Positions 3,307-35,426 of a DNA stretch of 64,000 nt are shown one piece after another. The notes under the pieces are model-generated. The model saw nothing but the letters and a program-made list of their open reading frames with translations. It had not been told where the DNA came from and searched no databases. The DNA comes from Blautia sp. (GTDB lineage: Bacteria > Bacillota > Clostridia > Lachnospirales > Lachnospiraceae), in the NCBI GenBank assembly GCA_017515325.1, contig JAFWGA010000039.1:1-64000 (forward strand). Direction: 5' to 3'. The position numbers and the translations under genes are program-made. How positions within the stretch are numbered: the stretch's first letter is position 1; each line of letters starts with the position of its first letter.

Positions 3307-3621
3307 TTTGAAACAGCCTTCCTTCATGCTCCTCTATACTCTTTAACTATTCTCTAAAAAGTAATTGTTCTCAGTCTAAAGAAACAACTAAGTCAGTTTC
3401 TTTTTTCATTTGCCAGCAAAGGTAGGAAAAATAATCCTTTGCATTTTTGCCCAAGATGTTAATTACGGCATCCGACAGATATTGATGAAAATCAATTACT
3501 ACATTTAATATCATATCATATCATATCATATCATTTATTCTATTTTATAACACTTAACCGTCACCTATATCTCACCCATATTCCTCATTTTTATAGTATT
3601 GTTCTACACTTTGGCCAAATA
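3307..3621. other. AT-rich intergenic stretch with no gene
   Basis: No open frame with a ribosome binding site is seen. It holds only the TCATA pentanucleotide run at 3509-3535 and AT-rich sequence. It separates two glycosyltransferase-type relics. Confidence 0.6.
3509..3535. repeat. pentanucleotide microsatellite (TCATA)n
   Basis: Five consecutive TCATA units in an intergenic AT-rich region. A shorter run of the same unit occurs at 35751-35767. Confidence 0.85.
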
Positions 3622-3825
3622 TTAAGAATCCAAATGAATGGGAATGTGTTCAGCTTTAAAAACGCTCCCTTCTGGCCTGTCCCTATATTTCACCAGAATC
3701 GTCTCAATCTGGTATTTATTATCTAATGCATGGATGGTTATTTCCGTTTCGATCTCGAAACCGCTACTTAGGGCTGGGAAAGTCTTTACGAATTCATAAC
3801 TGAAAGCCCTGTACCCTATCATGAT
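3622..3825 (-). pseudogene. internal fragment of a family-2 glycosyltransferase
   Basis: This 66-codon frame reads IGYRAFSYEFVKTFPALS, then FEIETEITIHALDNKYQI and KYRDRPEGSVFK, which is the segment following the catalytic core of GT2 enzymes related to dolichyl-phosphate mannose synthase. The normal continuation (SKLNTFSDG) is replaced by unrelated residues and a stop. Upstream, the frame runs back through stops into a sequence I do not recognise, so both ends look like recombination junctions. It is a relic, paralogous to the fragment at 1178-1632. Confidence 0.65.
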
Positions 3826-3958
3826 GCTTGCTAATGGAATCTAACCCAAATGTTGCTGCCATCCATACGAAAACCCTGCTTCGGTTCCAAAACTCGCTAC
3901 TGTTGAAGTGATTAGTACCTCTATCCAAGTGGAGTTCCCATCCGCTATATGTGAAACG

Positions 3959-4975: not shown

Positions 4976-5970
4976 TTCACATCTGCCTTTTCGAATAATA
5001 AGAGATGTTCTATAAATCCAGAAATCTGCTTTACAATACATGCAAGTACTATGGTTAATGCCAAAATGATAACAATGTCCAACCACAGCATGTTTGTTAT
5101 ACCAATTAAGCTAAATGGGCCAAGAATCAAAAGGTGATGTGTCAAATACATTTCATACCCGTAATCATCGGTGAATGACAGGAGAAAGGAGATTCCATTC
5201 AAATTGTTTCTGTCAAAAATAGTCTTCATCATCAAGAAAAGGAATATGCCCAATGCCACATGATTGTAATTATAAAAGACTCCAAATCTGGTGACCTGCC
5301 TATGCGCAACATAAGATAAATAGATCTGAATACCGTTCCCGGCAAAGGCTATTATTCCAAATGCAATAACGCACATTTTCTCTTTGATGTAACTCTTCTC
5401 TTCATTAATCCCGAGAATGTATCCAATAATGAAACAGACGATCCATGCCGGAGTATAGAACCTATTAAAGTACCCAAATAGCAGTACCGCTATCTCGATA
5501 GACGCAAGTGCAAATAGAAAAAAGCTTCTATTGCTCTTCACATATTTATTCCTAAAGGCTGCAAGCAGTGGAACAAGCACATAACAAATCAATATGGTAT
5601 GTACAAACCACAGATGCCCCGCACCTTTAAGCGTACCATTCACAAAAAGGCCTTTAGCAAATTCTTTCCAGTTAAAAAACCCCCTGGCAAATAGAAGCTG
5701 GAATACCCCATACGGAACATAAACAACATAGTATGAAATCAGGATTTTCTTAAACCGTCTCACATAAAACGACGTGACTTCGCCGACATCTTTCTGTCCA
5801 TACAGAAACCCGGAAATGCAGAGGTAAATCTGCACCCCGACATTGAACCACCACGCAAGCTCCAAATCCAATTCCTGCATAATATGGCAAGAAATAATAA
5901 AGGAAAGCGCAATGAGGCGGATAAGGCTTACAGAATAGTTTCTATTTTGATGGCTTAATCCTTCTCCCAT
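4972..5970 (-). CDS. acyltransferase-3 family membrane protein (WecH-like)
   Basis: 332 residues with about ten membrane segments. The opening NYSVSLIRLIALSFIISCHI, then WWFNVGVQIYLCISGFLYGQ, matches the acyltransferase-3 fold, with the conserved arginine and histidine in helix 1. It probably O-acylates a sugar in the cell-surface polysaccharide. The stop overlaps the next acyltransferase by four bases (ATGA). The left inverted repeat of the insertion sequence lies only 7 bp upstream of the ATG. The gene has therefore lost its original leader and upstream operon connection, and expression would depend on read-through from the element or a new promoter. Confidence 0.85.
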   Translation of the reverse strand: MGEGLSHQNRNYSVSLIRLIALSFIISCHIMQELDLELAWWFNVGVQIYLCISGFLYGQKDVGEVTSFYVRRFKKILISYYVVYVPYGVFQLLFARGFFNWKEFAKGLFVNGTLKGAGHLWFVHTILICYVLVPLLAAFRNKYVKSNRSFFLFALASIEIAVLLFGYFNRFYTPAWIVCFIIGYILGINEEKSYIKEKMCVIAFGIIAFAGNGIQIYLSYVAHRQVTRFGVFYNYNHVALGIFLFLMMKTIFDRNNLNGISFLLSFTDDYGYEMYLTHHLLILGPFSLIGITNMLWLDIVIILALTIVLACIVKQISGFIEHLLLFEKADVK

Positions 5971-6005
5971 TTTCTAAGGATTCCCACATAAATAAATGGA
6001 ACAAC

Positions 6006-7418
6006 TTAAGCTAACAACCGGTAATCCTTCCAACGACTTCCGGGACTATGTGGAGTGATTACATAATTCCAATTCTGCATAGATGTACAATCCCCAATAG
6101 TTTGTATATTGACATCGTTTTGGTACAATGCATCATTAATGATCCCGATATAATCTCGGTTTTCAGCAATGGCTTTTTTCTTTTCTGATTCTGTCAAATA
6201 GATATTGAAGTTGATTTCGCAGCCAACAGTCAGACCAGTCTTTGTATGAGTTTGACAAGTATAGCCTTTCACCACTTCCAGGGATGTAAGCGGCTTAGCA
6301 GTCCATGCATGAGATACTTGTGACCATAAACGACGCTCAATGGGATTGTATTTACTGGTTCCTGGAGGATAATGGCACATTTCGACTTTAATGCCGAGAT
6401 TATCAGAAAGCTGTTGTAAAGCTATTTTCCATACCCACCCTCTTGAACGATTGCTTCCACCACCATCTGCTAATATCAGAATCCGTTTTGCATTTGGAAA
6501 TTGACCGGAGCCCTGATTTTTCCACCAGGCAGCTATAGAGTCAGCAGCAAATTCTGACGTATCATGATCAATACCAATTACTGCATATCCTGTATTATTG
6601 TTCAAACAATATATACCATACGGGATGAAGATGGCTTTTCTTTTGAGAATTTCTGCAGGAATGGAACTATAGCCATCCGGATATATTTGTTCGTATGTAA
6701 ATGCAAAATCGTGATCAAGTACACGCCTTGGATCACCCTTTTTACGATACTCAACACCAGAACGGATAAAGTCGCCCAATTTCTCTTTAGCCTTCGTGTC
6801 TATTGAAATAACAGGGTCTCCGTTCTTAATATATTCATTCCTTCTTGCTTCAATATGATTGAACTGCGCATCTCTCATTGGATGTGCATCGCCTACCTGG
6901 TCATATTTTTGGTTCTTCTGAAGAGAATATCCAAGTTTACGCACGATATTTTTGATACTTGTATGGCTATAGCGCTGTCTGGTTGTTTTATAGATTTCTT
7001 CTCCTATAGATTTTACCGTTACATTGATCCAGGCATTGTTTCGCATGGGATCCCCATAAGATGCGTTCATAACGATCGTATCAACGACAAAAAGAATGTC
7101 AACGACTTCAGGTATCTGTTCGTCCGTGAAGCATCCCATTGCCAGAATAGCTTCCCGATGTTTTACTTCAAGACGTTTTCTTCCTCCGCCAGGAACACGG
7201 CTACGATCACCAACGTGGAATACTTCGCCCGCTTTTACAGCATCAATGCCACGGTGTATACAACCCCTGCTGATATTCAATGTCCTGGATAAAGCGGTTA
7301 CCCCGCCGTATCCAAGATCTATTGCAATGCTGCCAAGGTATAGTCTTCTTTGTTTTTCGGACATACCTTTCAGGTTGTTTATGATGTGCATAGTAAATGC
7401 AGCGGGCAGTGCAAGCAT
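6006..7418 (-). CDS. ISAzo13-family DDE transposase
   Basis: 470 residues. An N-terminal helix-turn-helix region (residues 25-70: GYGGVTALSRTLNISRGCIH) is followed by the DDE domain of the ISAzo13 (Rhodopirellula-type) family. Visible catalytic contexts are VISIDTKAKEKLG (first Asp), RILILADGGGSNRSR (second Asp) and YPPGTSKYNPIERRLWS (Glu). Length is normal for the family. The stop codon falls inside the left terminal repeat. The gene follows the accessory frame by about 80 bp on the same strand, probably from one promoter near the right end. Confidence 0.93.
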   Translation of the reverse strand: MLALPAAFTMHIINNLKGMSEKQRRLYLGSIAIDLGYGGVTALSRTLNISRGCIHRGIDAVKAGEVFHVGDRSRVPGGGRKRLEVKHREAILAMGCFTDEQIPEVVDILFVVDTIVMNASYGDPMRNNAWINVTVKSIGEEIYKTTRQRYSHTSIKNIVRKLGYSLQKNQKYDQVGDAHPMRDAQFNHIEARRNEYIKNGDPVISIDTKAKEKLGDFIRSGVEYRKKGDPRRVLDHDFAFTYEQIYPDGYSSIPAEILKRKAIFIPYGIYCLNNNTGYAVIGIDHDTSEFAADSIAAWWKNQGSGQFPNAKRILILADGGGSNRSRGWVWKIALQQLSDNLGIKVEMCHYPPGTSKYNPIERRLWSQVSHAWTAKPLTSLEVVKGYTCQTHTKTGLTVGCEINFNIYLTESEKKKAIAENRDYIGIINDALYQNDVNIQTIGDCTSMQNWNYVITPHSPGSRWKDYRLLA

Positions 7419-7499
7419 ATCGGTAACCCCCGGGACCTTATTCTGATGGCGTTCCGAAGGAATGGATATCTGTATATTTACACTGGAAACCAGAAGTTT

Positions 7500-7892
7500 T
7501 TACTGTCTTGTAGTATGTACTGAACGAATGAATGCATCAATGGCATTATTAGTAGCTTCAATCTGATTCTTTAAGGATTGGATCTGTTCGCTTAACGCCT
7601 TGTTCTCATTGCGTTGCTTATCCAGTTCTTCTAAAGCTTGTTTGTACCTGGTGTAATATGATGTATACTCTGATTGATGCGTGAAAGCAGAGGGTTCTTC
7701 CGTTTGGTCTTTCTTTCGCCTGCCAGGCTTGCCAGAGCTTGGTACGAATTCCTTGGTTATTGGATCTTCATACCCAATATAAGTACGCTTGGGGCGGGAG
7801 GATTTTTTTACGGGATCATAACAGGATGTACTCTCATAAATGCTTACCCACCCAGTTTTTTTGTTAACATAACGAACACGGGACATAGACAC
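7500..7892 (-). CDS. insertion-sequence accessory protein with basic N-terminus and coiled coil
   Basis: 130 residues lying between the transposase and the right terminal repeat, same strand. Residues 5-60 (RVRYVNKKTGWVSIYES, then RPKRTYIGYEDP and GKPGRRKK) are basic and resemble the N-terminal segment of IS1634/IS4-type transposases, which suggests DNA binding. Residues 80-118 (heptad-like LEELDKQRNENKALSEQIQS) predict a coiled coil. I infer a transposition helper or regulator carried by the element. No catalytic motif is present. Such an extra frame is not a textbook part of ISAzo13 elements. Confidence 0.7.
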   Translation of the reverse strand: MSMSRVRYVNKKTGWVSIYESTSCYDPVKKSSRPKRTYIGYEDPITKEFVPSSGKPGRRKKDQTEEPSAFTHQSEYTSYYTRYKQALEELDKQRNENKALSEQIQSLKNQIEATNNAIDAFIRSVHTTRQ

Positions 7893-8128
7893 TCCTTAGT
7901 ATGAACACCATCAGTACATATATTATAATATATACCACGCAAAAATAAAATACTCATTTGGTATTTACTATTATAATTGTGTACCAACAACTGATTTTGC
8001 CTTTGGTTTTTTCGCTACTTATAATCGGTAACCAAAGACTATTCTACCATACAGAAGTCTCTATCGGTAAAGAAAAAAGAACCTAATCGCATTTAACAAA
8101 GTTGTTCCATTTATTTAATTGGTAATCC

Positions 8129-8661
8129 TAACCACCTCAATCAAAGTAAAGTGCTATAAAAACCAACAAATTATCATAGTTATTGGAAAAAGCCCAGCTC
8201 AGATTTTCTCCTATGGATCATAGCCTTCTGGATTCAAGGATATCAGAGTTATGATTCCTATCTGCATTACTGAATTCACGGGCGGGGGAATATGCCTATA
8301 CCTTGTACCTTTACTGTACTTTTACTGTACTTTTACTGTACTTTTACACGGTTAACATTTATGCAAAGTAACTCGGTACTTTTACAAAACGGATAATGTC
8401 GCGTTTGTTCATGTGGGTCTTTTTTCTACATTACGCTTTAAATATTTCCTCCTACCGTATCATAAAAAAAATGGTACGCACAATACATTGAATTCGAACA
8501 TCTCCGACTATGAAGTAGGCTTCACCTGACGCAAGCGATTTGTAAATAGATTCCATGTGGAGGTGTTTCATTTTCCAAAAGCTTGTTTTTTTGAAATATT
8601 CGCAGTTTTTCTTAATACAAGTCTGACCGCAATGTTATTCGCACAATACTAATTAAGTTAT
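8129..8661. other. 533-bp intergenic stretch beside the insertion sequence
   Basis: No convincing gene on either strand. It holds the 11-bp tandem repeat at 8304-8347 and AT-rich sequence. Before the insertion it would have joined the LtaS-like gene to the acyltransferase genes. Confidence 0.55.
8304..8347. repeat. 11-bp tandem repeat, four copies
   Basis: Four consecutive units of TGTACTTTTAC, the first with one mismatch. A partial further unit (GGTACTTTTAC) lies about 27 bp on. The array sits downstream of the LtaS-like gene, in non-coding sequence. Confidence 0.9.
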
Positions 8662-10488
8662 TCAGGGATCAAATAAATCATCAATCCTATATTTGCTTTT
8701 TAAAGCGTTATATTCCATATAATAATAATATCTTACAATCTCTGCCACCTTCGATGATGAACTAATACTGTCGGAACTACCATCTGTTTTTATAAAACCA
8801 AGGGATGAATTTTTACTATTTTCTTCAACCTTTACATTTATAACAGACTGAACTTCTTTTGTCATTTTAATCAGCTCATTATAATAGGGAGAAATTGGAA
8901 GCCCTGCATACTTCAGAACAAGCGGTGTCAATGAACACAAGTCAATATTATGATTTTCCGAAAGTGTTGAATAGTCAATAACTGTACCATAATTGCTCCA
9001 AATAAAAAATGGAACCTGACGCATCAATAAATTAATCTGTGTTGATGAAGGTGTTTCTAATTGTTCAAGAGAGATCTCCTTTACTAAAGATGGGCTATGA
9101 TCACCTACCATATAAAAAATTACATTTCTGTCATGATCAGTATAATAATCAACAACCTCTTTGATCATCTCATCTGTCTTTGAAACACATGTAAGGTATT
9201 CCTCCATTCTTCCAATATCATAATCGGAAAGGCCATTATCTTTCCGAATATGTACTATATCAAACTCTGGTACATTTCTATTCCAATCCCCGTGATTTTG
9301 TATTGTAAGCAGATACGCAAATCGAGGCTGATCTTCAGGCATATTCTCATAGAACCTTTTGAAATTTTGAAAGGAACTGCTATCGCTTGCAAACCACCGT
9401 TCTCCATAGTATTCAAGATCAGAAAAATCGTCTTCAAAATAGATATAATCAAAACCAAGATCACTCCATGCACTCTCTCTATGATAATTTTGAGGAGCAG
9501 AAGGATGGGCTGCCATCGTAGTATATCCAATTTTCTCTAGATATCCAACGAGATTCTTGCTGTTTTTTAGACTTAAATCATTAAAGGGTGTCGATGTATT
9601 AAGAAGCGGCATTGCATTACTTGTGAGCAATTCATACTCACTTGCGTTTGTTCCTCCTGCGGTGTAAGGCACCTCCGCATAGCCTTTAAAAGCATCCAGG
9701 GCTTCATAATTCTGCATACATGAAACATCTGTTTCAAAATCTATGAGATGGTCCATATCATAATATGATTCATTAAGAATCATGATAATATCTGGATAAT
9801 TTTCCGATGTCCCAGACATCCCTACAGCATTTCGAATAATCTCGTCATCATAACCATCTGGCTTAGTTATGTGATTGAAAGCCCTTCCAACCGTTTCCAT
9901 CGTTCCAATTACAAAACTATTTTGATAGTATTTTAGTTCCCAACTCCATGCTCCTGACTTAATCAACTTGAACGGTGAATATACTGTAAAATAAGATATT
10001 ATAATTAGGCAAATAATCGAAAGAACGCCTACTCTCCTTTCAGTCATAAATTCAATTTTCTTCATCCTAACATAAAAAAGTATTATCATTAGGATAATTA
10101 GTGAAGCCAAAATACACAAAACAACCGGAGTAACGCGAAAGCTATAACTACCCAATTGTCTATATGCAATAGCTGCATTTTTAATATCCTGAATCGTCAA
10201 CACTGTTCCATGGAAAAGAAGTTCATAATAATTCACAATCGCTATTGCATTAATAAGGAATGCAAAAATGCACGATACAATCAGCGGTTTCCGAATAATA
10301 AGTATTAAAGAAAAAAGGAACAAAAACATAATGACAGCGCAAATAATATACGAAGGAATATATGGCTTAATACTTCTATCAATGTGTCTCGCCTGTACCA
10401 TTGACGCGAATAGAGCCATCATGGTTTGGCAGACACAAATCCACACCATGAAAGTGGTAGCTGCCATTCTTTTATATCCAGGTTTCAT
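8662..10488 (-). CDS. LtaS-family membrane sulfatase (phosphoglycerol transferase)
   Basis: 608 residues. About five membrane helices occupy residues 10-180, followed by an extracellular sulfatase-fold domain of about 400 residues. Signature segments are PDIIMILNESYYDMDHL, GGTNASEYELLTSN (the Thr nucleophile context), AHPSAPQNYHRESAW and MVGDHSPSL (metal-binding Asp-His). LtaS-type enzymes transfer sn-glycerol-1-phosphate from phosphatidylglycerol. Homologues inside polysaccharide operons (for example GacH in streptococci) decorate the glycan with glycerol phosphate. The location at the end of this glycan operon favours that role over true lipoteichoic acid synthesis. The start has a GAGG site 7 bases upstream. 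Confidence 0.88.
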   Translation of the reverse strand: MKPGYKRMAATTFMVWICVCQTMMALFASMVQARHIDRSIKPYIPSYIICAVIMFLFLFSLILIIRKPLIVSCIFAFLINAIAIVNYYELLFHGTVLTIQDIKNAAIAYRQLGSYSFRVTPVVLCILASLIILMIILFYVRMKKIEFMTERRVGVLSIICLIIISYFTVYSPFKLIKSGAWSWELKYYQNSFVIGTMETVGRAFNHITKPDGYDDEIIRNAVGMSGTSENYPDIIMILNESYYDMDHLIDFETDVSCMQNYEALDAFKGYAEVPYTAGGTNASEYELLTSNAMPLLNTSTPFNDLSLKNSKNLVGYLEKIGYTTMAAHPSAPQNYHRESAWSDLGFDYIYFEDDFSDLEYYGERWFASDSSSFQNFKRFYENMPEDQPRFAYLLTIQNHGDWNRNVPEFDIVHIRKDNGLSDYDIGRMEEYLTCVSKTDEMIKEVVDYYTDHDRNVIFYMVGDHSPSLVKEISLEQLETPSSTQINLLMRQVPFFIWSNYGTVIDYSTLSENHNIDLCSLTPLVLKYAGLPISPYYNELIKMTKEVQSVINVKVEENSKNSSLGFIKTDGSSDSISSSSKVAEIVRYYYYMEYNALKSKYRIDDLFDP

Positions 10489-25628: not shown

Positions 25629-26666
25629 ATGAAGGAGGTGCCCACCATACCCGAAAAAGACTACACTGAGAAAAAGCTCGAAGATTTCCCGGATGTTTTT
25701 GCTGATATTGTGAACGTTTTTCTTTTCAATGGCGAGCAGCGAGTCAAACCAGAGGAACTCCTTACCTCCATGACCCGATCATCCTACAAGGTGGAAGGAC
25801 GCCTGGATGAACAGGAAAGGGATTCAAAGAAGGATTGGATGCAAAACCGTATTTGCATCGCCATCTTCGGCTTGGAGAATGAGACCGCCCCTGAAGCGAC
25901 TTACCCCATCAAGGTCATCTCCTATGATGGTGCCGATTATAGAGATCAGATCCGAAAGCGTGACGATATCAAGAGGAGGAATAAAAAGCTTCTTGACCAA
26001 GCCGTGAGAGAGGGAATGGATCAATCCTCTGTTGTTTTAGAACCACTTCCTCCCTTTTATCCAGTTATTACCCTAGTTCTCTACTTCGGAGATAGGAGGT
26101 GGAACGGTTCCCGCAACCTGAAGGATCATCTAACTATTCCCAGTGGGCTTGATTCATTCGTCCCTGATTACAAAATCAACCTCTTTGAAATTTCCTTCCT
26201 TGATGAGGAAACCGTCGCCAAGTTCAAGAGCGACTTCCGCTACGTGGCGGAGTATTTTGTCCAGACCAGAAGGAAAAAGGAAGGCTTGGAGCCAATCTTC
26301 TCTCTTACGTTGAAGCATCTCACCCACGTAAAGGAATTCATCGATCTTATGAATGCAATTACAAACTCAAAGATTTTTACTGGTCTTCCCGATGGTGTTA
26401 CAGAAAGGAGTGACAAGACCATGATGACGTATATTTATGATGATGCCTATGAGAAAGCACTAAAAAAAGCAAAAGTCGAACTCCGGGAGCAGGTTACTGC
26501 TGAGGTAACACAGGAAGTAACCGAGGAAGCCAAAAAAGAGGGTGAAGACCTCTTTGCAAGGCTTACCGATAAGCTCCTCGAACTTGGGAAGTTCGCCGAC
26601 TTGAGAAAAGCTGTCAAGGACATACCCTTCCGCAAGAAGCTTTATTCCTTGTATGGTATTGAATGA
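25629..26666 (+). CDS. Rpn-family recombination-promoting nuclease/putative transposase
   Basis: 345 residues related to Rpn (PD-(D/E)XK) proteins. Evidence is KKLEDFPDVFADIVNVFLFN, STYKV-like SSYKVEGRLDEQERD, RICIAIFGLENETAPEATYP, PVITLVLYFGDRRWNGSRNL and the FEISFLDEE segment. A glutamate/lysine-rich helix (residues 278-315) precedes the C-terminus. Rpn proteins are DNA nucleases linked to RecA-independent recombination. The start is uncertain. The ATG at 25629 overlaps the AAGGAGG sequence, whereas family alignment suggests starting at an ATA codon at 25647 just after it. The gene ends before a strong terminator. Confidence 0.8.
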   Translation: MKEVPTIPEKDYTEKKLEDFPDVFADIVNVFLFNGEQRVKPEELLTSMTRSSYKVEGRLDEQERDSKKDWMQNRICIAIFGLENETAPEATYPIKVISYDGADYRDQIRKRDDIKRRNKKLLDQAVREGMDQSSVVLEPLPPFYPVITLVLYFGDRRWNGSRNLKDHLTIPSGLDSFVPDYKINLFEISFLDEETVAKFKSDFRYVAEYFVQTRRKKEGLEPIFSLTLKHLTHVKEFIDLMNAITNSKIFTGLPDGVTERSDKTMMTYIYDDAYEKALKKAKVELREQVTAEVTQEVTEEAKKEGEDLFARLTDKLLELGKFADLRKAVKDIPFRKKLYSLYGIE

Positions 26667-26672
26667 TGTAGC

Positions 26673-26700
26673 GCCCCTCAGAGATGAGGGGCTGTTTTTT
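26673..26700 (+). terminator. rho-independent terminator after the Rpn gene
   Basis: A 7-bp stem GCCCCTC/GAGGGGC with a 6-base loop is followed by TGTTTTTT. Confidence 0.9.
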
Positions 26701-26807
26701 CCTTCAAAGGTTTACATAAATGGGTTGCACCTGTTTTTGGGTGGGGTAGGAAAGTGTAGCCTCCAAGGATATAAATTGAACCAATATTTTACAAATTGGA
26801 ATGATAT

Positions 26808-27779
26808 TTACGGGTGTCTGACACATATTTTGGAATCATTCATTATCAAAACTTCATTGTTTAACATATTAAGTCGCTTTTTTATTCTCCATTGCTGTAA
26901 TTTTAGTTCATTTGTTAACGGAGATAAAAGGAGTAGAGATCCTTTGCTTAGCGACTGAACTCTTTCGGCTAATATCGTTAGTATTTTATAATGATTTTCA
27001 TTAAATAATCGTTCTGCTTCTGCTTTGGAAAAATCAAACCGCACAATAGGGTCTGGGTGTTCATTATGCAAATTAACATCATACCAGCTCAAAGCAGTTT
27101 CTATGTTAACTATCTCTGTATATGATTTAATTACAAAAATAAACGGTAAATAATCAACTTCATATTTGTTAATCCAATATTTTACTGCGGAAGTATCAGC
27201 ATCTATCTCTTTTGCCTGATTTAATATTCCTTTATAAGAATAGCATAAAAAGGCGTTTCTATTATTTTCTATAATAGCAGAATATGGAATTGAAACCTGA
27301 TAATCACTCAGAAAATACTTTGTTTGTTCAAGTACGGCACTGATGTAGCAGTGTTTACGCTGAGCATGAAAGTACTCATGAAGGGTGATAAATCTTATCA
27401 ATGAAAAAAATATTTCTTCACACTCAATATTGCTCCCTAAAATATCATTGATTTTTTTCTTTGTAGGTTCATCCAATATTATTTTTATACTGTCATATAA
27501 CTTGTTAATTTCGCCTGTAAACCACGTAATACATTTCTCCTCAAAGTGATATGATGCGTTTATTATTTCTTGCTCATCTGAAATTACAATACCATTTTTT
27601 AGATCAATATACTCGATATCTTCTTGTACATCATCAATACATTCCTTTGATATGTTCAAGGCTTGTTGATATATTTTTCTTAGATTTTCTCGTTTTAATT
27701 CTATAATTTCAGATACATCACTGAATGCTTCAAAATTATTTAATTTATTATTGTGCCGAAATTTAATATTTATCTTCAT
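26808..27779 (-). CDS. putative zinc metallopeptidase (HEXXH), no signal peptide
   Basis: 323 residues, AT-rich, no membrane segment. The motif ITLHEYFHAQRKH places His134, Glu135 and His138 as a zinc-binding HEXXH. About 55 residues later, AKEIDADTSAVKYW gives a candidate third ligand (Glu191) in an ExxxD context reminiscent of M48-type gluzincins. Residues 1-110 are helical and rich in Ile/Glu. I do not recognise a named family. It lies between the Rpn gene and the recombinase, on the recombinase strand, 33 bp downstream of it. An AAGGA site precedes the ATG. A role in mobile-element biology or defence is speculative. Confidence 0.65.
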   Translation of the reverse strand: MKINIKFRHNNKLNNFEAFSDVSEIIELKRENLRKIYQQALNISKECIDDVQEDIEYIDLKNGIVISDEQEIINASYHFEEKCITWFTGEINKLYDSIKIILDEPTKKKINDILGSNIECEEIFFSLIRFITLHEYFHAQRKHCYISAVLEQTKYFLSDYQVSIPYSAIIENNRNAFLCYSYKGILNQAKEIDADTSAVKYWINKYEVDYLPFIFVIKSYTEIVNIETALSWYDVNLHNEHPDPIVRFDFSKAEAERLFNENHYKILTILAERVQSLSKGSLLLLSPLTNELKLQQWRIKKRLNMLNNEVLIMNDSKICVRHP

Positions 27780-27812: not shown

Positions 27813-29030
27813 TTACAGACTAAAGGTCATTATCTTCTCCAATTGTTCTGTTAATTCCCTCACTGTCCTATGACCGTAAACTCCATTGGTTACATCATTC
27901 CGAAGACTGTGTCCCATCATCCGCTTCCTATCAGCTTCATTCACAGAAAAGCTCTCACAGAGTCTACTAAACGTATGCCGACAGGAATGAGGTGTATGGT
28001 ATCTCTCCCCGCCATCTATACCCAGCTCAAACAATTTATCTTTCATATCGAACCGGAACCGACCAGATCCTTTTCCACAGAAGAATGAACCATCCAAATC
28101 TTTAACCAGATCCTTTATCGCGCTGTGGATGGGTACGATCCGATCTCTCCCAGCCTCTGTCTTAAACCCACCTTGAAAGAATCCCTTATCCAAATTTATC
28201 TGAAAATTCTCAGCTTTATATTCATTGACTCTAAACCCGCTATAACACATCACCAGAATATTCTTAACCACAGGATCATCTTTTTTCTCCCAGAGCTTTT
28301 TTAGCTCCTCATCCGTGAAGTCTTGATGATGTTCCTCTTCCTTAGCCGCAGGCATCTCCACATAACGACCAGTCTCCTTATTACACCATCCTCTCGGATA
28401 GGCATACTTCCAGATCTGATGAGCCAAAGTCACTACCCTCGACAAAGTTGTCTTACTGAATCCTTCATCAGCCTGTTGATTAACCATCTCCTGAAGACTA
28501 TCTACAGTTATCTCATCCAGGGTTAGCTTATAAAATGGCTTAAATCTTTTATAGGCAGAATCTGTTGATCGTCTGGCAGCCACCGACAGTTTTCTTTGCG
28601 CATGCTCACCAAATTTATGCTCATAGAAGGAAGCATATACCTCTTCAAAGGTAGGTACCTCAGAGTCCTTCTTCTTTTTGTCGAGGAACTCCCCGTTCTT
28701 TATCTTCTCCATGTCGTCCAGAACTTGCTGGCAGTAATCACAGAGGATTTCCTTTGTCTCAGGTAATTCTATCGGCGTTCCCCCATCAACCAGCTCCTCC
28801 ATACCACTCTTATACATCCCAGCATGGAAAAGAGCCAGAACCTTCAAACCAGAGTCCCAGGAAGCCACATAACAAATAGCCGGAGGACGTTTCCATCCAG
28901 TTTTTTCTTCACCTTCAGTCGTCTGATAAAAAACCGCAGGTGGATGCACCGCATATGGCCGCCGTCTCCCTTCTCCAAGATTTCTTATAGTTCCAAAGCC
29001 TGACGGAAGACGGTGCCTGCCATTTATCAT
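27813..29030 (-). CDS. tyrosine recombinase (phage-integrase family)
   Basis: 405 residues. Residues 1-110 form an unusual N-terminal part (RLPSGFGTIRNLGEGRRRPY then a CDYC pair), typical of Clostridial integrase-like proteins with an AP2-like arm-binding start. Residues 125-220 are the core-binding domain. Residues 235-395 are the catalytic domain, with Arg267 (YSGFRVNEY), His348-x-x-Arg351 (HSCRHTFSR), His374 (MMGHS) and Tyr385 (NGVYGHRTV). All catalytic residues are present. No phage or conjugation genes flank it. Instead, a repeat array and two inverted pilin genes adjoin it, which suggests a local DNA-inversion role. A GGAAGGAG site precedes the start. Confidence 0.9.
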   Translation of the reverse strand: MINGRHRLPSGFGTIRNLGEGRRRPYAVHPPAVFYQTTEGEEKTGWKRPPAICYVASWDSGLKVLALFHAGMYKSGMEELVDGGTPIELPETKEILCDYCQQVLDDMEKIKNGEFLDKKKKDSEVPTFEEVYASFYEHKFGEHAQRKLSVAARRSTDSAYKRFKPFYKLTLDEITVDSLQEMVNQQADEGFSKTTLSRVVTLAHQIWKYAYPRGWCNKETGRYVEMPAAKEEEHHQDFTDEELKKLWEKKDDPVVKNILVMCYSGFRVNEYKAENFQINLDKGFFQGGFKTEAGRDRIVPIHSAIKDLVKDLDGSFFCGKGSGRFRFDMKDKLFELGIDGGERYHTPHSCRHTFSRLCESFSVNEADRKRMMGHSLRNDVTNGVYGHRTVRELTEQLEKIMTFSL

Positions 29031-29058
29031 AGGGTTTTATCTCCTTCCTTTGACGGAC

Positions 29059-29210
29059 ATGCTCCGCAGGGATGGGAGATTTGTGGCGGAGCATGAGCAA
29101 CTGGTCACAAATACGGCGAACTGGTCACAGTTATGAAGTGCGAATTTACTGGCTTTATGCCCACTTGTATGTCCTTCTGACTGGTCACAAAAACATACAA
29201 CTGGTCACAA
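29059..29210. promoter_or_regulatory. phased array of CTGGTCACA repeats and inverted repeats between recombinase and pilin
   Basis: Four identical CTGGTCACA units start at 29101, 29121, 29181 and 29201, so spacings are 20, 60 and 20 bp, multiples of about two helical turns. A 9-bp inverted repeat ATGCTCCGC/GCGGAGCAT lies at 29059-29067 and 29086-29094. An 8-bp inverted repeat TTGTATGT/ACATACAA at 29165-29172 and 29193-29200 brackets the third unit. The region separates the divergently read recombinase and the plus-strand pilin. It looks like recombinase arm sites or an operator cluster. That reading is inferred. Confidence 0.75.
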
Positions 29211-29245
29211 AGGTTTTATCTCAAAGCCGGTAAGACAGGGAATTT

Positions 29246-29263
29246 ATGAGATTGCGACGATGA
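29246..29263 (+). CDS. possible five-codon leader frame overlapping the pilin start
   Basis: An ATG preceded by CAGGGA opens MRLRR and stops at a TGA that overlaps the pilin ATG at 29260 (ATGA). The AGGGA is better placed for this leader than for the pilin. It is either a translational-coupling leader or a by-product of a shuffled 5' end. Confidence 0.35.
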   Translation: MRLRR

Positions 29264-29328
29264 CGGCTTTAGTCATCGCGATGGTAATGGTAGTGGGGAC
29301 CATGAGTATGGCTGGTGCTGCAAACGGA
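29259..29328 (+). repeat. left copy of 70-bp inverted repeat over pilin signal-peptide codons
   Basis: It matches the reverse complement of 32985-33054 at 66 of 70 positions. It contains the palindrome CATCGCGATG and the symmetric element ATGGT-N7-ACCAT. The four differences all change amino acids or lie at the start. No synonymous difference is seen. Confidence 0.92.
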
Positions 29329-30888
29329 AATCTTATTCCGGATTCATCTGTAACCATAAGTGGTCTGGAAGACCAGGATGTAGTAAACCTTTATCAGGTA
29401 TTCAAGTGGGATGACGTAAACGGTTGGTCACTTACTGATGATTTTGAAGATCTTGATACTACTAACCTTGCAAACATCCAGGCAATTATTGATAATGATA
29501 CGACAAATACTCCAATCCAACTTACAAAAGCTGAGCTTGAAGCTCTTGCGACTTATGCTAAAGAAAATAACTTGTCTCCTACTTCAGGAGTTGCTTCCGG
29601 AGCTGATTTCACGAAGTCTGGTCTGGAACCCGGTATGTATTTAGCGCTAGTTGAGCCGAAGACAGCTGGAGTTATCTATAATCCTCTTGTTGTTTCAGTC
29701 GATTATAAGGATAATGAATCTAATGAAATCGATGCTTCTTCTGCCAAAATGGGAAGCGATTCTGCTGTCGCAAAGAAAGATACTGTTACGGTAGAAAAGG
29801 TAGCAAACGATTATACACATAACACGAATGACTATGTACAATTTACTGTAACTACCACTATTCCTGTCTACGCTGATTCCTATGTTAATCCTAAGTTCAA
29901 TGTAACTGATACTTTATCAACCACTGGACTTAAGGGTGTTGTTAATACAGATGATCATAAGTTTGAAGTGGAAGCTGGTTCAGTAAAATATACAGGCACT
30001 CCGAGCGATGGCTTCACTTCTTTTACACTTACATTTGATACTGAAGATATCGCAGCCTTGACAACCCCACAGAGCGTTACAATTAAATATTGGGCTCAGA
30101 TTACCTCTGATGCTCCATTTACTGTTAATGAAGAGACAAATGATGTAACGGTAGAGTATTCTAACAATCCAAAGAACGATCAGGATTATGACACTCTTTA
30201 TGACGAGACCAAACATTGGACATTTGATATAGATGGTAGCCTCTTTGGTGATTCTAGCTATACAACTGGTGAAGTTGTAAAGATTGGCGTTGACGAGAAC
30301 GGACATATTCTTGAGAGCATGGTTGAATTGGACAATGGTTCTGAGCATGGTGCATTGGCAGATGCTGTATTTGGACTATATCCTGAAGGAACTACTGAGT
30401 TTACTGATGCTAACCTTTACAAGAATAAACAATATCAGAGTGGATGCAAGGTCACTACGACTGCTGATGGTTTGATGGAAATCAAAGGTCTTGACGAAGG
30501 CACCTACATCTTGAAAGAAATTTCAGCTCCTGCTGGATATATTAAAGATCAAAATGAGCATACGATTGTAATTGACGCAACTTATAGTGAAAAAGAATAT
30601 AGCAAAGTGATCAACGGGAAAACTGTATATTATAAGGTTAAAACTCTTGATTCTTATACTGTCACCATTGATGGCAAGAAAACATCAACCTATACCATGA
30701 CTCTTTCTGGTCCGGCAATTAGTTCCGTCACACCTGGTGATAGCTCCTCTGAAATCCAGAATACAAAGGGTGTCGAGCTTCCCAGCACTGGTGGAATGGG
30801 TACCACACTCTTCTATGCGATTGGTGCGATCCTCGTACTTGGTGCAGGCATCCTTCTTGTCTCCAAGAGGAGAATGAGTGCTAACTAA
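29260..30888 (+). CDS. LPXTG-anchored SpaH/EbpB-type major pilin, plus-strand copy
   Basis: 542 residues. A truncated signal peptide (MTALVIAMVMVVGTMSMAGA) lacks the basic MKHFKKM start found in its minus-strand partner. Then come an N-terminal pilin domain, isopeptide-type beta domains (DTVTVEKVANDYTHNTNDYV), an E-box-like YILKEISAPAGY at about 414, and the sorting signal LPSTGG at 507 with a membrane helix and KRRMSAN tail. Sortase would join such subunits into a pilus and anchor it to peptidoglycan. No sortase gene is in the window. The weak start (AGGGA serves a leader frame instead) suggests this copy is silent in the present orientation. Confidence 0.85.
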   Translation: MTALVIAMVMVVGTMSMAGAANGNLIPDSSVTISGLEDQDVVNLYQVFKWDDVNGWSLTDDFEDLDTTNLANIQAIIDNDTTNTPIQLTKAELEALATYAKENNLSPTSGVASGADFTKSGLEPGMYLALVEPKTAGVIYNPLVVSVDYKDNESNEIDASSAKMGSDSAVAKKDTVTVEKVANDYTHNTNDYVQFTVTTTIPVYADSYVNPKFNVTDTLSTTGLKGVVNTDDHKFEVEAGSVKYTGTPSDGFTSFTLTFDTEDIAALTTPQSVTIKYWAQITSDAPFTVNEETNDVTVEYSNNPKNDQDYDTLYDETKHWTFDIDGSLFGDSSYTTGEVVKIGVDENGHILESMVELDNGSEHGALADAVFGLYPEGTTEFTDANLYKNKQYQSGCKVTTTADGLMEIKGLDEGTYILKEISAPAGYIKDQNEHTIVIDATYSEKEYSKVINGKTVYYKVKTLDSYTVTIDGKKTSTYTMTLSGPAISSVTPGDSSSEIQNTKGVELPSTGGMGTTLFYAIGAILVLGAGILLVSKRRMSAN

Positions 30889-30920
30889 TCTTTAACCCCG
30901 TAGCAAAATAAGTAACCTTT

Positions 30921-30951
30921 CAGCCGGGGAGGTCTACCCTCCTCCCGGCTG
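30921..30951 (+). terminator. GC-rich hairpin after plus-strand pilin
   Basis: The arms CAGCCGGG and CCCGGCTG plus GAGG/CCTC form a strong stem 33 bp after the stop. There is no T run, so it may stabilise the transcript rather than terminate it. Confidence 0.55.
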
Positions 30952-30970
30952 ATCGGAAAGCAATAGCGAG

Positions 30971-31014
30971 ACGCTGCAACTGCTCTATAAGCTGTGGGTA
31001 GTTGCAGCGTTTTT
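30971..31014 (+). terminator. rho-independent terminator of plus-strand pilin
   Basis: A 10-bp stem ACGCTGCAAC/GTTGCAGCGT is followed directly by TTTTT. Confidence 0.9.
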
Positions 31015-31063
31015 ACGTTCCCTTCACCTCTATATAATCATTTGTATAGAGAAATCTCAGAAT

Positions 31064-31102
31064 GAAAAAAGAGAAGACCAGGCCAACAGACCTGATCTTC
31101 TC
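31064..31102 (-). terminator. rho-independent terminator of minus-strand pilin
   Basis: A 12-bp near-perfect stem (31071-31082 with 31091-31102) is followed on the minus strand by a T run (AAAAAA on the plus strand at 31065-31070). Confidence 0.88.
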
Positions 31103-31205
31103 CATACCCCGGCTAACCTCAGTGTTTCTGGAATAGCTGGTTTTCTTTACTTGTTAGTCAGGCGACGATATGGAAAACGTCTTCTTTCTAAACATTGATT
31201 GTTTC

Positions 31206-33071
31206 TTAGTTCGCAGACATTCTCCTCTTGCTTACCAGAAGGATGCCAGCACCGAGAACAAGGATAGCACCGATTGCATAGAACAGGGTTGTACCCATTC
31301 CACCAGTGGAAGGAAGCTCTACGCCCTTGGTATTTGCAAGCTCTTTGTCGGAACTGTCAATAGAACGAGAAACACTCATGGTCGTTCCATCAGCACTGTT
31401 TTCCATTGTATAGGATGTTGTGCTTCCACCGATTGTTACAGAATAACTTACAAGCTCATTCGTCACATGAGTTGTTGTAATCTGTTTTCCATCAGCTGTA
31501 TAGGAAACAGTAACTTCTTTGTTTTCATTAATCTTCGCGCTGATAACAACAGGTACATAATCCTGAAGAGCAATATATCCCGTAGGAGCAGTATCCTCTT
31601 TCAACCAGTAGTTGCCAGCATCAAGACCCTTGATAGTGATACGTCCTGTTGAATCGGATACAGCTGTTCTTCCCTGATTATTTCCATCTTTGTATGGTGT
31701 ATCTGGTTTGCCATCGTCATCAGAATCGATATAAAGAGTAAACGTTGCACCTTCCAGAGCAGCGTGCTCTACTTCATTATTCCAGGCATAGCTCTTCATA
31801 GAAACAATCGGCTCACCGTCCTTATCAACACCGATCTTTATTGCTTCTGTAGAGGACTCACTGCCATACTTAGAGCCAAAAAGATTAGCGTCGATAGAGA
31901 ATGTGAAATGGTTTGTTTCGTTTTCCAAGAGTCCATAACCAGTTGTATCATCCGGTTTAGTTGAGAAGTTAAGATCTACAGTATTGTTTTCCTGGTTTAC
32001 AGTATAAGCAGCCTCATCAGTTACTACAGCTTTATAAACGATAGTAATTTTCTGTCCAGCCGCCCCTACTTGACGAAGGTAAGCCTCTGTGAACTGAATT
32101 GTGTATTCATCATCATCAACAGCACCATCAGTCAAGATGTAAGCACCGTCTGTTAACGCAGATGCATAGGTAACAGTATTGCTTCCACTCAGAAGGTTGT
32201 CTGTATCGGTATAGGAAGCCGTCTCAGCAGCAAAAACCTTCGGAGCAGCAGAAATCTTAAGCCCAGTCAAAGTATCATGGAGCTTAAATACAGGAGCATC
32301 GTAGTTATCACCGAATCTCGGGATCGTAGTTGTTACGGTATATGTGATCTCTTCGCCAATGTCAGTGGTATGAGCAGAATTATCAGTAGCCTGATCATTC
32401 TCATTTGTCAAGTTAACAGGTTCATCACTACCTGTAGCGGTCTTGTTTAACGGAATAGTGGATTTCTTAGCCATACCTTTATTATAATAGGTTGGCTTGT
32501 CAGCGGAAACCGCAATGGAATAGCTTTCATCAGGTGTCTCATTGTTTCCATAGAAGTTTGCTGCAACAAAAATAGGATTGTACATTGTACCAGGTTTACC
32601 AGGAGTAACAATTACCATGTACAGACCAGGATCCTGATTCTGAACGGACCATTCGCCAGTACTTGTAAGAGCCATGTTTTCCCCTTTTGCGGTACCTAAA
32701 GCATTAGCAAGGGTAGCAGCATCTGTACTATCGATTTGACCTGCACCATCTGCTGTACCAACAATTTTACGAAGAAGAGCTTTGTTAGCAGCCGTGGTTG
32801 TATCATCATTGAAAGTTACACCATTAGCCCATGCCCATCCAATAGGAGTACTATTTGCAGCATCTGTTTCATTAATTGTATGTTCCAAATCCCAATCAAT
32901 GATATGATAATAAGTTACAGTGTCGCCTTCATCGAGACCAGAGACTGTAAGGGTGCTGTTCCAGTTAAGGTCGCCAGGATTTACTCCGTTTGCAGCACCA
33001 GCCATGTTCATGGTCCCCAGTACCATTACCATCGCGATGACTAAAGCCATCATCTTCTTAAAATGTTTCAT
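31206..33071 (-). CDS. LPXTG-anchored SpaH/EbpB-type major pilin, minus-strand copy
   Basis: 621 residues. The complete signal peptide MKHFKKMMALVIAMVMVLGT ends near AGAA. Extracellular pilin domains follow: WSVQNQDPGLYMVIV and, after the Lys-rich KKSTIPLNKTATG, EEITYTVTTTIPRFGDNYD. An E-box-like YWLKEDTAPTGYIAL occurs near 485. A LPSTGG sorting signal at 586 precedes a membrane helix and a KRRMSAN tail. The last 43 residues equal those of the plus-strand pilin. A strong GAGAGGGAAAGC site precedes the ATG, so this is the copy in the expressed position. It converges with the other pilin, with both terminators between them. Confidence 0.92.
   Translation of the reverse strand: MKHFKKMMALVIAMVMVLGTMNMAGAANGVNPGDLNWNSTLTVSGLDEGDTVTYYHIIDWDLEHTINETDAANSTPIGWAWANGVTFNDDTTTAANKALLRKIVGTADGAGQIDSTDAATLANALGTAKGENMALTSTGEWSVQNQDPGLYMVIVTPGKPGTMYNPIFVAANFYGNNETPDESYSIAVSADKPTYYNKGMAKKSTIPLNKTATGSDEPVNLTNENDQATDNSAHTTDIGEEITYTVTTTIPRFGDNYDAPVFKLHDTLTGLKISAAPKVFAAETASYTDTDNLLSGSNTVTYASALTDGAYILTDGAVDDDEYTIQFTEAYLRQVGAAGQKITIVYKAVVTDEAAYTVNQENNTVDLNFSTKPDDTTGYGLLENETNHFTFSIDANLFGSKYGSESSTEAIKIGVDKDGEPIVSMKSYAWNNEVEHAALEGATFTLYIDSDDDGKPDTPYKDGNNQGRTAVSDSTGRITIKGLDAGNYWLKEDTAPTGYIALQDYVPVVISAKINENKEVTVSYTADGKQITTTHVTNELVSYSVTIGGSTTSYTMENSADGTTMSVSRSIDSSDKELANTKGVELPSTGGMGTTLFYAIGAILVLGAGILLVSKRRMSAN
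32985..33054 (-). repeat. right copy of 70-bp inverted repeat over pilin signal-peptide codons
   Basis: Inverted partner of 29259-29328 (66/70). Inversion between the two would swap the pilin bodies 29329-32984 relative to the intact start at 33071. Confidence 0.92.
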
Positions 33072-33542
33072 AAGCTTTCCCTCTCTTTGTATGAAAACTT
33101 AGTTGCCAGTTACTTTCCCTGCAAAGAAAGCAAAGGATGATCCATGTTCCGTTTCCAACCGTGACAACCACAACAGCGGTAAGTCTCTACTCATGTCTCA
33201 AGTATCTTTTTCTTTCCTTGCACATACTTTTATCTTAGTCGACGGGGAACCCCTTCTACAGACGGATCCCGTTAAACCTGATACTCTCTCCGTTCCTGTC
33301 TTCCCCTATCGATAAAATAAACAACGGAAAAATGCGTTTCCTGGTTACTTCCCCTTCCCGTGGTTCTGGTCTGTCTTTTGGCTACCCTGTCCTTCCCGGG
33401 AAGGGGAGTCCTCTGGGTGAGGCTCTCCCCATAGAACGGCATCGTCCCGGGTTAATTGGCCTGCCCCTGGTGCGGGAAAGGCGGATCAGCTGCTTCATCG
33501 CATCATTTATGGGAATCACCTCCTTTCCTTTAAAACCGAGAA
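33072..33542 (-). promoter_or_regulatory. 471-bp leader region upstream of the expressed pilin
   Basis: It lies between the stop of the upstream adhesin gene and the pilin start, read on the minus strand. A possible -10 (TAAGAT) lies near 33235. The perfect palindrome CCTTCCCGGGAAGG at 33389-33402 and a GGGGAG/CTCCCC stem with an inner CCTC/GAGG pair just beside it indicate structured RNA. A strong AAAGGAGG at about 33523-33530 precedes a 38-codon frame (33391-33507) that starts MKQLIRLSRTRGR. I cannot tell whether that frame is translated. No known riboswitch consensus was recognised. Confidence 0.45.
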
Positions 33543-35426
33543 TTACTTCCTTTTCCTCAAGACAAGGATGGTAACCAGTCCGGCGGCTGCTGCCAAAAGG
33601 ATGACATACAGGGCGATCGGGGTATCATCGCCTGTCTTGACATTCTGCGTCTGGCTTACACTCTCGGTATAGGTCTGGGCCACATTGCTGTTTGTCGTAG
33701 TACTGCTGTTGACAGTGCTGCTATGGTTATCGGTAGTATTCGTCGTCACCACGGAAGGCGTGGTAGGCGGCGGAGTAAGGATGATCTGGGTGACATAAGG
33801 TGTAGGTGTCCTGACAATCGGTGTCGGGGTGACGGTGACTGTCGGGATCGGTGTCGGTGTCGTACTCGGATCCGGTCCAGGTCCTTCAGGTAATGGAGGC
33901 GTAATTTCCGGAGTCGGGGTAACCGTCGGGGTCGGGGTCGGTGTCGGAGTCGGGGTGGATGTCGGCGTAGGCGTCGGCGTATCCGGAATCTCCTCATTGG
34001 TGATCTCCACAACCGAAAGCGGAGTCTCCCTGCTCGGATAGGTAAGCAGGACCTTTCCCTCCACGGATTCCTTTTTATCCACCTCTATGGTAACGGCATA
34101 TTTAAATACCTCGCTGGTGGAAAGAAGATTTCCATCCTCATCCGATTCATACACATAGTAAATGACATCCTGCGGCTTCATGCTGTCACCGCCGGGAACC
34201 TCGAAGGTGATCCAATCTCCGATGACCAACTGCTGTGTCTGAAAATAGGCATGACTGCCATCATACAGTGTAGCCTCTGAATAACAGGTTGCAAAGAAGG
34301 GACCTGCGTCCTCCACATCCTCTGAGCTTCCGGCCCTTAACAGGTTTTTCCTGACTTTGATGAATCCATCCAGATAAAACCTGCCGGGAGGCAGCTCTGA
34401 GTAGAAGTTCTCAATATATACTCTGTTCTCGACCTCTTCCTGGGCAGGAAGATCAAAACCGTTGGTAGAGACGTTGTTCTCGTCCGTAATGGTACAGATA
34501 AAGTTAATTTCCCCTTCAACAGGGTAAGGAACCCCCGGAATGATGGGATTTCCTTCCTCATCCAGCTCGTAGACATAATAACGTCCTGCCGGAAGGTTCT
34601 CAAAGGTAACCGAACCGGAACTGCTTCCCTCCACAACGATAGTCTGAACGGCATCCTCAGACACCAGCACAGTCCCCTCCTCGTCGTAGAAAAGGCCGAT
34701 CGTGAATTCCTCATGGACTGCATACACGCTCGCGTGACCAAAGTCCATCCCTACTGCCAGGTTTTTGGTTACGGTAATCTTCCCGGTAAAATCATCCCGG
34801 CTGGCTTTGGGGTAGACATTGACATCATAGAGAAGCTCTCCTTCATGATTCATATAGGGAATCGTAAGCAGGTAGGGCTTGATCTGCACGCTGTCGTCTC
34901 CGGAGGAATTCTGTCCCTTCAGGATCAGATATACGCCGTAATCCATGTCTTCGAAGATAAGGTTTCCCATGGAATCCGTCTCTCCGGAACAGACAGGCTC
35001 ATAGGCAGCGCTGTCAATATCGTAAACCTGGGCAAGTGCCGTACTCATCATCGGCTTGTGCTGAATCCCAGGAATGAGGGCCATACATTTGTAGGCAGCC
35101 TGAAGGGTAGCTTCCGCGCTGGTCAGGTTCGAAAGATCAACCCCTGTACCTGCATAGGCTTCGTCCAGGACAAAACCGCCGTCCGGTGACAGGCTTCCCA
35201 CCTTGTACACATCCAAAGCAATCCCCGGAATGGGTTCCCCTCCAATAATAAGCTGGATCGAAAGCGAGCCCCGACCTGAAGCGTCATAGGCGGCCGCCTT
35301 TGTCCTTATGCTTCCCGTCATCAGCAAAAGCAGCGCCAGCCCCACCAGCAGAAGCGGCTTCATCCTTGCCGGGGAGAAAAACATCCGCTGTGGATTCAGA
35401 CTGAACCTGATTTTTCTATGATCCAT
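33543..35426 (-). CDS. sortase-anchored adhesin/pilin-like protein with Pro-Thr spacer
   Basis: 627 residues. A long signal sequence (residues 1-45, hydrophobic LLLVGLALLLLMTGS) is followed by an N-terminal pilin-like domain (RGSLSIQLIIGGEPIPGIAL, YGVYLILKGQ) and two Cna-B-like domains (GKITVTKNLAVGM, FENLPAGRYYVYELDEEG; FIKVRKNLLRAGSSED). A spacer of about 100 residues is made of PTPTPT, then a Ser/Thr/Asn-rich stalk. The C-terminus NVKTGDDTPIALYVIL, a membrane helix and RKRK form a KTGD-type sorting signal, not the LPSTG of the neighbouring pilins. A minor pilin or tip adhesin is likely. It is encoded upstream of, and on the same strand as, the minus-strand pilin. A GGGAGG site precedes the ATG. 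Confidence 0.85.
   Translation of the reverse strand: MDHRKIRFSLNPQRMFFSPARMKPLLLVGLALLLLMTGSIRTKAAAYDASGRGSLSIQLIIGGEPIPGIALDVYKVGSLSPDGGFVLDEAYAGTGVDLSNLTSAEATLQAAYKCMALIPGIQHKPMMSTALAQVYDIDSAAYEPVCSGETDSMGNLIFEDMDYGVYLILKGQNSSGDDSVQIKPYLLTIPYMNHEGELLYDVNVYPKASRDDFTGKITVTKNLAVGMDFGHASVYAVHEEFTIGLFYDEEGTVLVSEDAVQTIVVEGSSSGSVTFENLPAGRYYVYELDEEGNPIIPGVPYPVEGEINFICTITDENNVSTNGFDLPAQEEVENRVYIENFYSELPPGRFYLDGFIKVRKNLLRAGSSEDVEDAGPFFATCYSEATLYDGSHAYFQTQQLVIGDWITFEVPGGDSMKPQDVIYYVYESDEDGNLLSTSEVFKYAVTIEVDKKESVEGKVLLTYPSRETPLSVVEITNEEIPDTPTPTPTSTPTPTPTPTPTVTPTPEITPPLPEGPGPDPSTTPTPIPTVTVTPTPIVRTPTPYVTQIILTPPPTTPSVVTTNTTDNHSSTVNSSTTTNSNVAQTYTESVSQTQNVKTGDDTPIALYVILLAAAAGLVTILVLRKRK

Follow-up and report, generated by a model that had tools for sequence, protein, structure and literature searches.

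A candidate invertible switch for a sortase-type pilus backbone beside a phage-type tyrosine recombinase in Blautia sp.

Results

The stretch of DNA analysed here, called the window throughout, is the first 64 kb (64,000 nucleotides) of a 76.5-kb contig in a Blautia sp. genome of 3.3 Mb (68 contigs, estimated 87.7% complete). It contains two convergent genes for LPXTG backbone-type pilins, the signal-peptide codons of which form an inverted repeat, and a gene for a tyrosine recombinase next to the left arm of that repeat (Table 1). These features may together constitute a switch in which inversion of a segment exchanges one pilin body for the other.

Table 1. Features of the candidate pilin switch, with positions in the window
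Feature	Position	Strand	Description
Tyrosine recombinase	27813..29030	-	405 aa, open frame, lambda/phage-integrase class; predicted N-terminal arm-binding-like, core-binding and catalytic domains
Four exact ACTGGTCACA repeats (10 bp)	29100..29209	+	Starts 29100, 29120, 29180, 29200; possible arm-type sites for integrase binding
Left core site candidate CGATGAC-GGCTTTA-GTCATCG	29258..29278	+	Perfect 7-7-7 dyad, on the repeat's outer edge
Left arm of inverted repeat	29259..29328	+	Left pilin signal-peptide codons; 66/70 against 33054-32985
Left LPXTG backbone-type pilin	29260..30888	+	542 aa; Pfam domains; without normal start region; candidate silent allele
Left pilin C-terminal codons	30760..30888	+	129-nt inverted repeat with 31206-31334, 82%; protein kept, synonymous sites diverged
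Right pilin C-terminal codons	31206..31334	-	Partner arm of the 129-nt repeat
Right LPXTG backbone-type pilin	31206..33071	-	621 aa; Shine-Dalgarno and start both intact; candidate for the expressed allele
Right arm of inverted repeat	32985..33054	-	Right pilin signal-peptide codons; 66/70 against the left arm
Right core site candidate AGATGAT-GGCTTTA-GTCATCG	33035-33055		Outer edge of the right repeat arm; 5/7 half-site positions match
Second pilin-like surface protein	33543..35426	-	Gram-positive pilin D1 domain and C-terminal sorting signal; upstream of the right pilin, same strand; beyond the segment that would flip

The Pfam domains SpaA, GramPos_pilinBB and Gram_pos_anchor exceed their curated cut-offs in both pilins, which also reach the cut-off of the NCBIfam LPXTG anchor domain. 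Neither attains the 95 bits required for the SpaH/EbpB subfamily major pilin (NF033902), the right pilin scoring 72.4 and the left 38.3 bits, and by these profiles both proteins are pilin-like and lie outside that subfamily. An artefact of assembly in the form of a palindromic duplicate was rejected on account of the protein identity of the two pilins, which is only about 38%. The intact start and ribosome binding site at 33071 belong to the right copy, in the context AGAGAGGGAAAGCTTATG, and the left frame has no ATG, GTG or TTG ahead of the ATG at 29260, itself within the repeat. Just 5´ of the left head stands AGGGA, which resembles a Shine-Dalgarno sequence, together with an ATG out of frame with the pilin; a five-codon frame (29246-29263) stops there in an ATGA overlap with the first ATG of the left pilin, an arrangement that may represent weak coupled translation or a decayed start. 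Through the shared core, GCT-TTA-GTC is read in the same frame in both pilins and therefore, to argue from codon phase, the frame would be kept behind the right flank in either orientation.

The two arms of the repeat (29259-29328 against 33054-32985) are identical at 66 of 70 positions (94.286% over 70 nt, with a blastn E of about 1e-24 when a small database was searched), and a wider call gives 73 nt at 93% (29256-29328 and 32985-33057). As in an inverton, inverted repeats bound a segment. The 21-base outer edge of the repeat is found at two places only in the 64 kb when up to three mismatches are allowed, and in none of 100 shuffles. Identity in the heads extends to silent positions. Among degenerate codons specifying the same residue, all 14 are identical between left and right in the head, against 77 of 171 in the body (94 different) and 20 of 40 in the last 43 codons, or 97 of 211 for body and tail together (Fisher p = 3e-5 for head versus rest and p = 8e-4 for head versus tail). 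A previous, sequence-only reading of this DNA had described the 66/70 repeat, the lack of synonymous change in the heads, the single intact start and a complete recombinase some 230 bp away, all of which proved accurate. Its account of the last 43 codons was right about the synonymous differences (about 20 claimed, 20 counted) and too generous in calling the protein identical, 42 of the 43 residues being the same.

Other pairs of pilin heads served as controls, counted as identical and different degenerate codons. The right pilin and a pilin from another genus (G384) gave 10 and 3 (p = 0.02), and the latter gave 7 and 3 (p = 0.12) with the pilin at the related locus L034 introduced below. A pilin of the congener G002 (L085) gave 2 and 8 with the right pilin (p = 0.19) and 1 and 8 with the left (p = 0.08). 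On these counts strong identity of heads is no general rule among pilins, yet the G384 pilin shares much of the head. This gene, at 11873-13537 of L194 (G384:C48), is an intact pilin whose head is 92% identical over 61 nt to the right head in the window and whose body is distant.

Lambda-type core sites consist of inverted 7-bp half-sites around a 7-bp overlap. Perfect dyads of this 7-7-7 form number nine in the window, and the one at 29258 is the only one to start within 29000-34000. The homology between the repeat arms starts abruptly at 29259, at this dyad. The copies of ACTGGTCACA make up two pairs with 20-bp spacing, located between the recombinase and the left core and outside the segment that would be flipped; when the 228-base gap was shuffled 5000 times with its dinucleotides preserved, two was the highest count reached by any 10-mer. 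No repeats resembling ACTGGTCACA were found by the right core. In its organization, the left core with its repeats is reminiscent of a one-armed site of the lambda type, and arm repeats that lie outside the segment would serve both orientations.

The recombinase is encoded by an intact frame of 405 codons separated from 29259 by 228 bases, and its product matches a PHROG integrase family (E 6e-31). R267, K290, H348, R351, H374 and Y385, which we take to be the catalytic set of tyrosine recombinases, are invariant in an alignment of 20 sequences, so that the R-K-H-R-H-Y series is complete. In the AlphaFold model (mean predicted local distance difference test score, pLDDT, 81.4; predicted template modelling score 0.55), residues 14-69 are predicted to form five short strands and then a helix (block pLDDT 66-90) ahead of helical core-binding and catalytic regions. 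A Foldseek search with the model places lambda integrase at ranks 1-2 (best E 8e-8), the integrase of mycobacteriophage Brujita at 3 and Tn1549 Int at 4, with E values of 8e-8 to 5e-7 and 12-15% identity. Against lambda Int the template modelling scores for the whole model are 0.42-0.48 by query length. Among named relatives, the closest are encoded by phages of Ruminococcus gnavus (e.g., phiRM10) and by Blautia phage Montmirail, whose integrases show about 39% identity over 97% of the protein (seven records). No match at E 1e-40 was obtained in plasmids.

Relatives of the recombinase were sought in overlapping sets of 61, 397 and 392 genomes at genus, family and order levels, and pilins in 64 genomes, the genome of the window being counted in each set. 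With that genome included, profile matches were found in 45 of 397 family genomes (E 1e-30) and 6 of 392 order genomes (1e-60); 30 of the 53 matches listed from family genomes were made into loci for screening, the weaker ones being left out. Viral contigs provided 38 further loci, and a scan of the GTDB genome collection provided three (L034, L035 and L036), the last of which was rejected for comparison as only a C-terminal fragment of the recombinase. A tree of 67 recombinases groups the window with L034 and L035 in a clade that has good support (99/91), the window and L034 being closest (100/99) and phage contigs the next kin; L160, L162, L164, L102, L116, L117 and L010, being partial or interrupted, are omitted, and L161 gave no row. 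When 100 recombinase loci (85 and 15 further, many with flanks of only 1.5 kb) were screened with pilin queries, a pilin was detected beside the recombinase only at L034 and at the window's own locus, the positive control, a screen that did not catch L035.

L034 comes from a Parasporobacterium metagenome-assembled genome (MAG) from roe deer. Its recombinase gene is divergent to a pilin gene without a visible Shine-Dalgarno, which has ATGATGGCTTTAGTCAT in common with the window, exactly. A 22-nt motif is repeated between recombinase and pilin; the best 19-base repeat matches at 16 of 19 positions, and 40 shuffles reached 15 at best. In L035, from a Clostridia MAG, also from roe deer, the recombinase is divergent to the signal peptide MALVLALAMVLAMGTVAFA, which is cut by the end of the contig. 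An assembly would be expected to break off at such a point if one head were followed by two bodies. A second fragment resembling the recombinase C terminus, 77% identical over 35 residues, lies at 6371-6475 of L035, 5 kb from the intact gene, and perhaps marks the other end of an old element. A candidate partner of the L035 head, at G483:C27, was rejected because it belongs by eye to a transporter-type binding protein; it therefore stands as a warning that short stretches of signal-peptide DNA can look alike. Thus, an integrase is found with a start-less pilin in a second genome and with a signal-peptide remnant in a third.

No pilin match was found in the surrounding DNA examined at the 38 viral loci, the exact 21-base core occurs in no viral contig in the form searched, none of 64 viral pattern matches is related to the pilins of the window, and the right head has no match in phage records. 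A prophage was found at a pilin gene in the congener G002 (L085, G002:C31:12000-31000, at 2123-9665, and L202), where it ends beside the pilin at the same MMALVIA signal-peptide codons. It carries genes for a tail tape measure protein, a tail endopeptidase, a glucosaminidase-type lysin and two long serine recombinases. Consequently, the reading of such junctions as attachment sites is a real one, and for the window as well it stands as the chief rival; the same signal-peptide codons may be a recurrent target of recombination. The frame of the G002 pilin is open upstream and lacks a normal-looking start, and a second copy of its final codons and the DNA beyond them lies in direct orientation about 907 bp on (9537-11175 of L085; 87-93% identical), leaving a fragment of the pilin 3´ tail.

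Discussion

We consider it somewhat likelier than an even chance that the locus is an invertible allelic switch for the backbone of a sortase-type pilus. In the mechanism that we propose, a phage-derived tyrosine integrase would bind the four ACTGGTCACA repeats through its N-terminal domain and recombine the two 21-base cores (29258-29278 and 33035-33055), which are in inverted orientation, thereby flipping a segment of about 3.7 kb in which the two pilin bodies converge. Fixed at the right flank would be the ribosome-binding site, the first codons and, presumably, the promoter, such that the body behind it is made and the other is silent. With the arm repeats outside the segment, each flip would re-create the same kind of substrate, and one enzyme could work in both directions. 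The inversion of the segment, the role of this enzyme in it, the binding to the repeats and the silence of the left gene are what we infer, and the switch is supported by several features: the repeat and its codon asymmetry, the dyad at the edge of the homology, the repeats confined to the integrase side, and an intact integrase frame with a lambda-like predicted fold, from a supported clade that is arranged divergently in much the same way in two further bacteria. The pilin switch proposed in the sequence-only reading is supported in part, its anatomy being strengthened by the core-like dyad, arm-like repeats, shared frame and recombinase clade; as an explanation of L034 and L035, and of part of the window, it is equalled or bettered by a stranded phage integrase.

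A number of observations weigh against a programmed inversion. The right core is an imperfect dyad (5/7), and exchange confined to the cores would leave about 50 head bases inside the flipping segment unhomogenised. The likeness of the G384 head, high in a genome with no recombinase match at E 1e-40, indicates that alike heads need no such enzyme. The sequence-only reading had suggested a search of related genomes for the inverted arrangement, and in the sets searched this gave no opposite orientation and no second whole locus. Neither comparison locus shows two pilins: L034 has no second one in the 581 bases to the end of its contig, its head was found once in its own genome at the sensitivity used, and no pilin body is seen in L035, where the contig ends within the signal peptide. 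The repeats of L034 are unlike those of the window in sequence, and L035 has one weak 14-nt pair only. Finally, a primase/helicase of phage type is the product of the next long gene by the L035 recombinase (43% identity to its counterpart in the phage contig L127), and L035 may be a plain prophage remnant. Because of this primase we keep our preference for the switch a modest one and have given more weight to a phage remnant.

The latter explanation, unlikely in our estimate but the strongest of the rivals, holds that the integrase is stranded: phages or related elements with integrases of this family attach at conserved pilin signal-peptide codons, the left pilin lost its start to such an insertion, the element decayed, and the second pilin is an inverted paralogue, no programmed inversion taking place. 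It draws on the closest kin of the recombinase (38 viral-contig loci and the integrases of seven phage records), on the G002 prophage ending by a pilin at the same codons, on the primase/helicase of L035 and on the single start-less pilin of L034. The lack of any synonymous change in the heads and an inverted partner 3.7 kb away are left unexplained by it, the two genes to the left of the recombinase have no PHROG match, and eight further proteins on both sides, the subset of genes scanned, show no match to phage structural, lysis or replication proteins. No direct-repeat partner of the core occurs in the 64 kb at up to three mismatches, where the contig ends at base 1 and a partner further left is possible. 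A weaker objection is that attachment in the phage kin is perhaps on the 3´ side of the integrase, 9 of the 38 viral loci ending within 40 bases of it, whereas the core in the window is on the 5´ side; provirus callers often cut at that place, and in the phiRM10 record the integrase is flanked by gaps on either side, with no site annotated.

Gene conversion or homologous inversion between paralogous pilins through their near-identical heads, with the recombinase a bystander, seems to us quite improbable. The heads are indeed alike over 70 bases, beyond the 21-base core, and the case of G384 shows such a head in a genome without a recombinase match, but the homology stops abruptly at the dyad, the tails, which are longer and nearly identical in protein, have not been homogenised, and recombinases of the same clade are found again next to a start-less pilin and to a signal peptide of pilin-like type. 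Least probable is a decaying duplicate, in which the left pilin would be a pseudogene with a damaged start, as the out-of-frame ATG behind AGGGA might suggest, and the heads identical by chance or signal-peptide selection, given that the left frame otherwise runs uninterrupted through 542 codons and encodes complete pilin domains and an anchor, and that head codon identity differs from the rest of the gene at p = 3e-5.

For the invertible switch, the pilin inversion of Moraxella appears to be the nearest analogue in its working. In Moraxella bovis and M. lacunata (tfpQ/tfpI), type IV pilins are inverted by the transposase-like Piv; the system was reportedly described by Marrs in 1988. There, as would be the case in the window, two pilin bodies are swapped behind a fixed 5´ end by an inversion whose crossover falls close to the start of the coding sequence. 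The Moraxella system has type IV pilins and Piv where the window has LPXTG pilins and a lambda-class tyrosine integrase, and its inversion is proven whereas that of the window is inferred; the window does not belong to the Piv class (type IV pilins, Piv-type enzyme), and the likeness is one of working only. Escherichia coli fimS and the cwpV and flagellar switches of Clostridioides difficile likewise switch a surface structure by recombinase-driven inversion; a short regulatory segment flips in these, whereas in the window it would be two coding bodies, with crossover in signal-peptide codons. The phage integrases of R. gnavus (phiRM10) and Montmirail are phage genes, in contrast to the window recombinase, which lies between a polysaccharide-type cluster and pilin genes.

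Sortase-dependent pili of Bifidobacterium breve also show ON/OFF variation, which is ascribed to replication slippage and not inversion (PMC9187656). Invertible sites have been recorded near fimbrial and pili genes, those of Clostridia mostly near signalling and chemotaxis genes (PMC5903667), and the main text of another study contains no word starting with pilin, sortase or LPXTG (PMC11892184). Among the titles and opening lines of abstracts listed from an open-access collection that takes in few subscription journals, no case of inversion of a sortase/LPXTG pilin was found.

If the switch is real, it would stand as a Gram-positive counterpart of the Moraxella one, inverting the coding bodies of a sortase-type pilin with a phage integrase in the place of Piv, and would show a way in which such bacteria could vary a surface fibre used in adhesion. 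Phage attachment sites would also become connected to how phase-variation switches originate in their hosts, the same few pilin codons perhaps serving both. One broader possibility, tentative and on balance doubtful, is that the signal-peptide codons of Gram-positive sortase pilins are targeted recurrently by mobile elements with integrases of two unrelated types, tyrosine and serine, and that one tyrosine lineage was adopted by the host, with its arm sites outside the segment, for a symmetric two-allele switch.

Neighbouring genes

No Rfam family reached its gathering score within 20000-45000, and neither the recombinase nor the two genes on its left had a match in the defence library of PADLOC. 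These two genes (25629-27779) encode proteins of 345 and 323 aa that matched nothing in Pfam, PHROGs or NCBIfam either; in the second, a motif HEYFH like that of zinc proteases was recognized by eye. They are possible cargo of an element. Further left, a long minus-strand cluster of surface-polysaccharide-type genes (sugar transferase, UDP-N-acetylglucosamine (UDP-GlcNAc) 2-epimerase and glycosyltransferases) occupies 1-25489 and ends beside the recombinase, and two surface systems are therefore neighbours. A gene for a DDE transposase is found within the region of this cluster, at 6006-7418.

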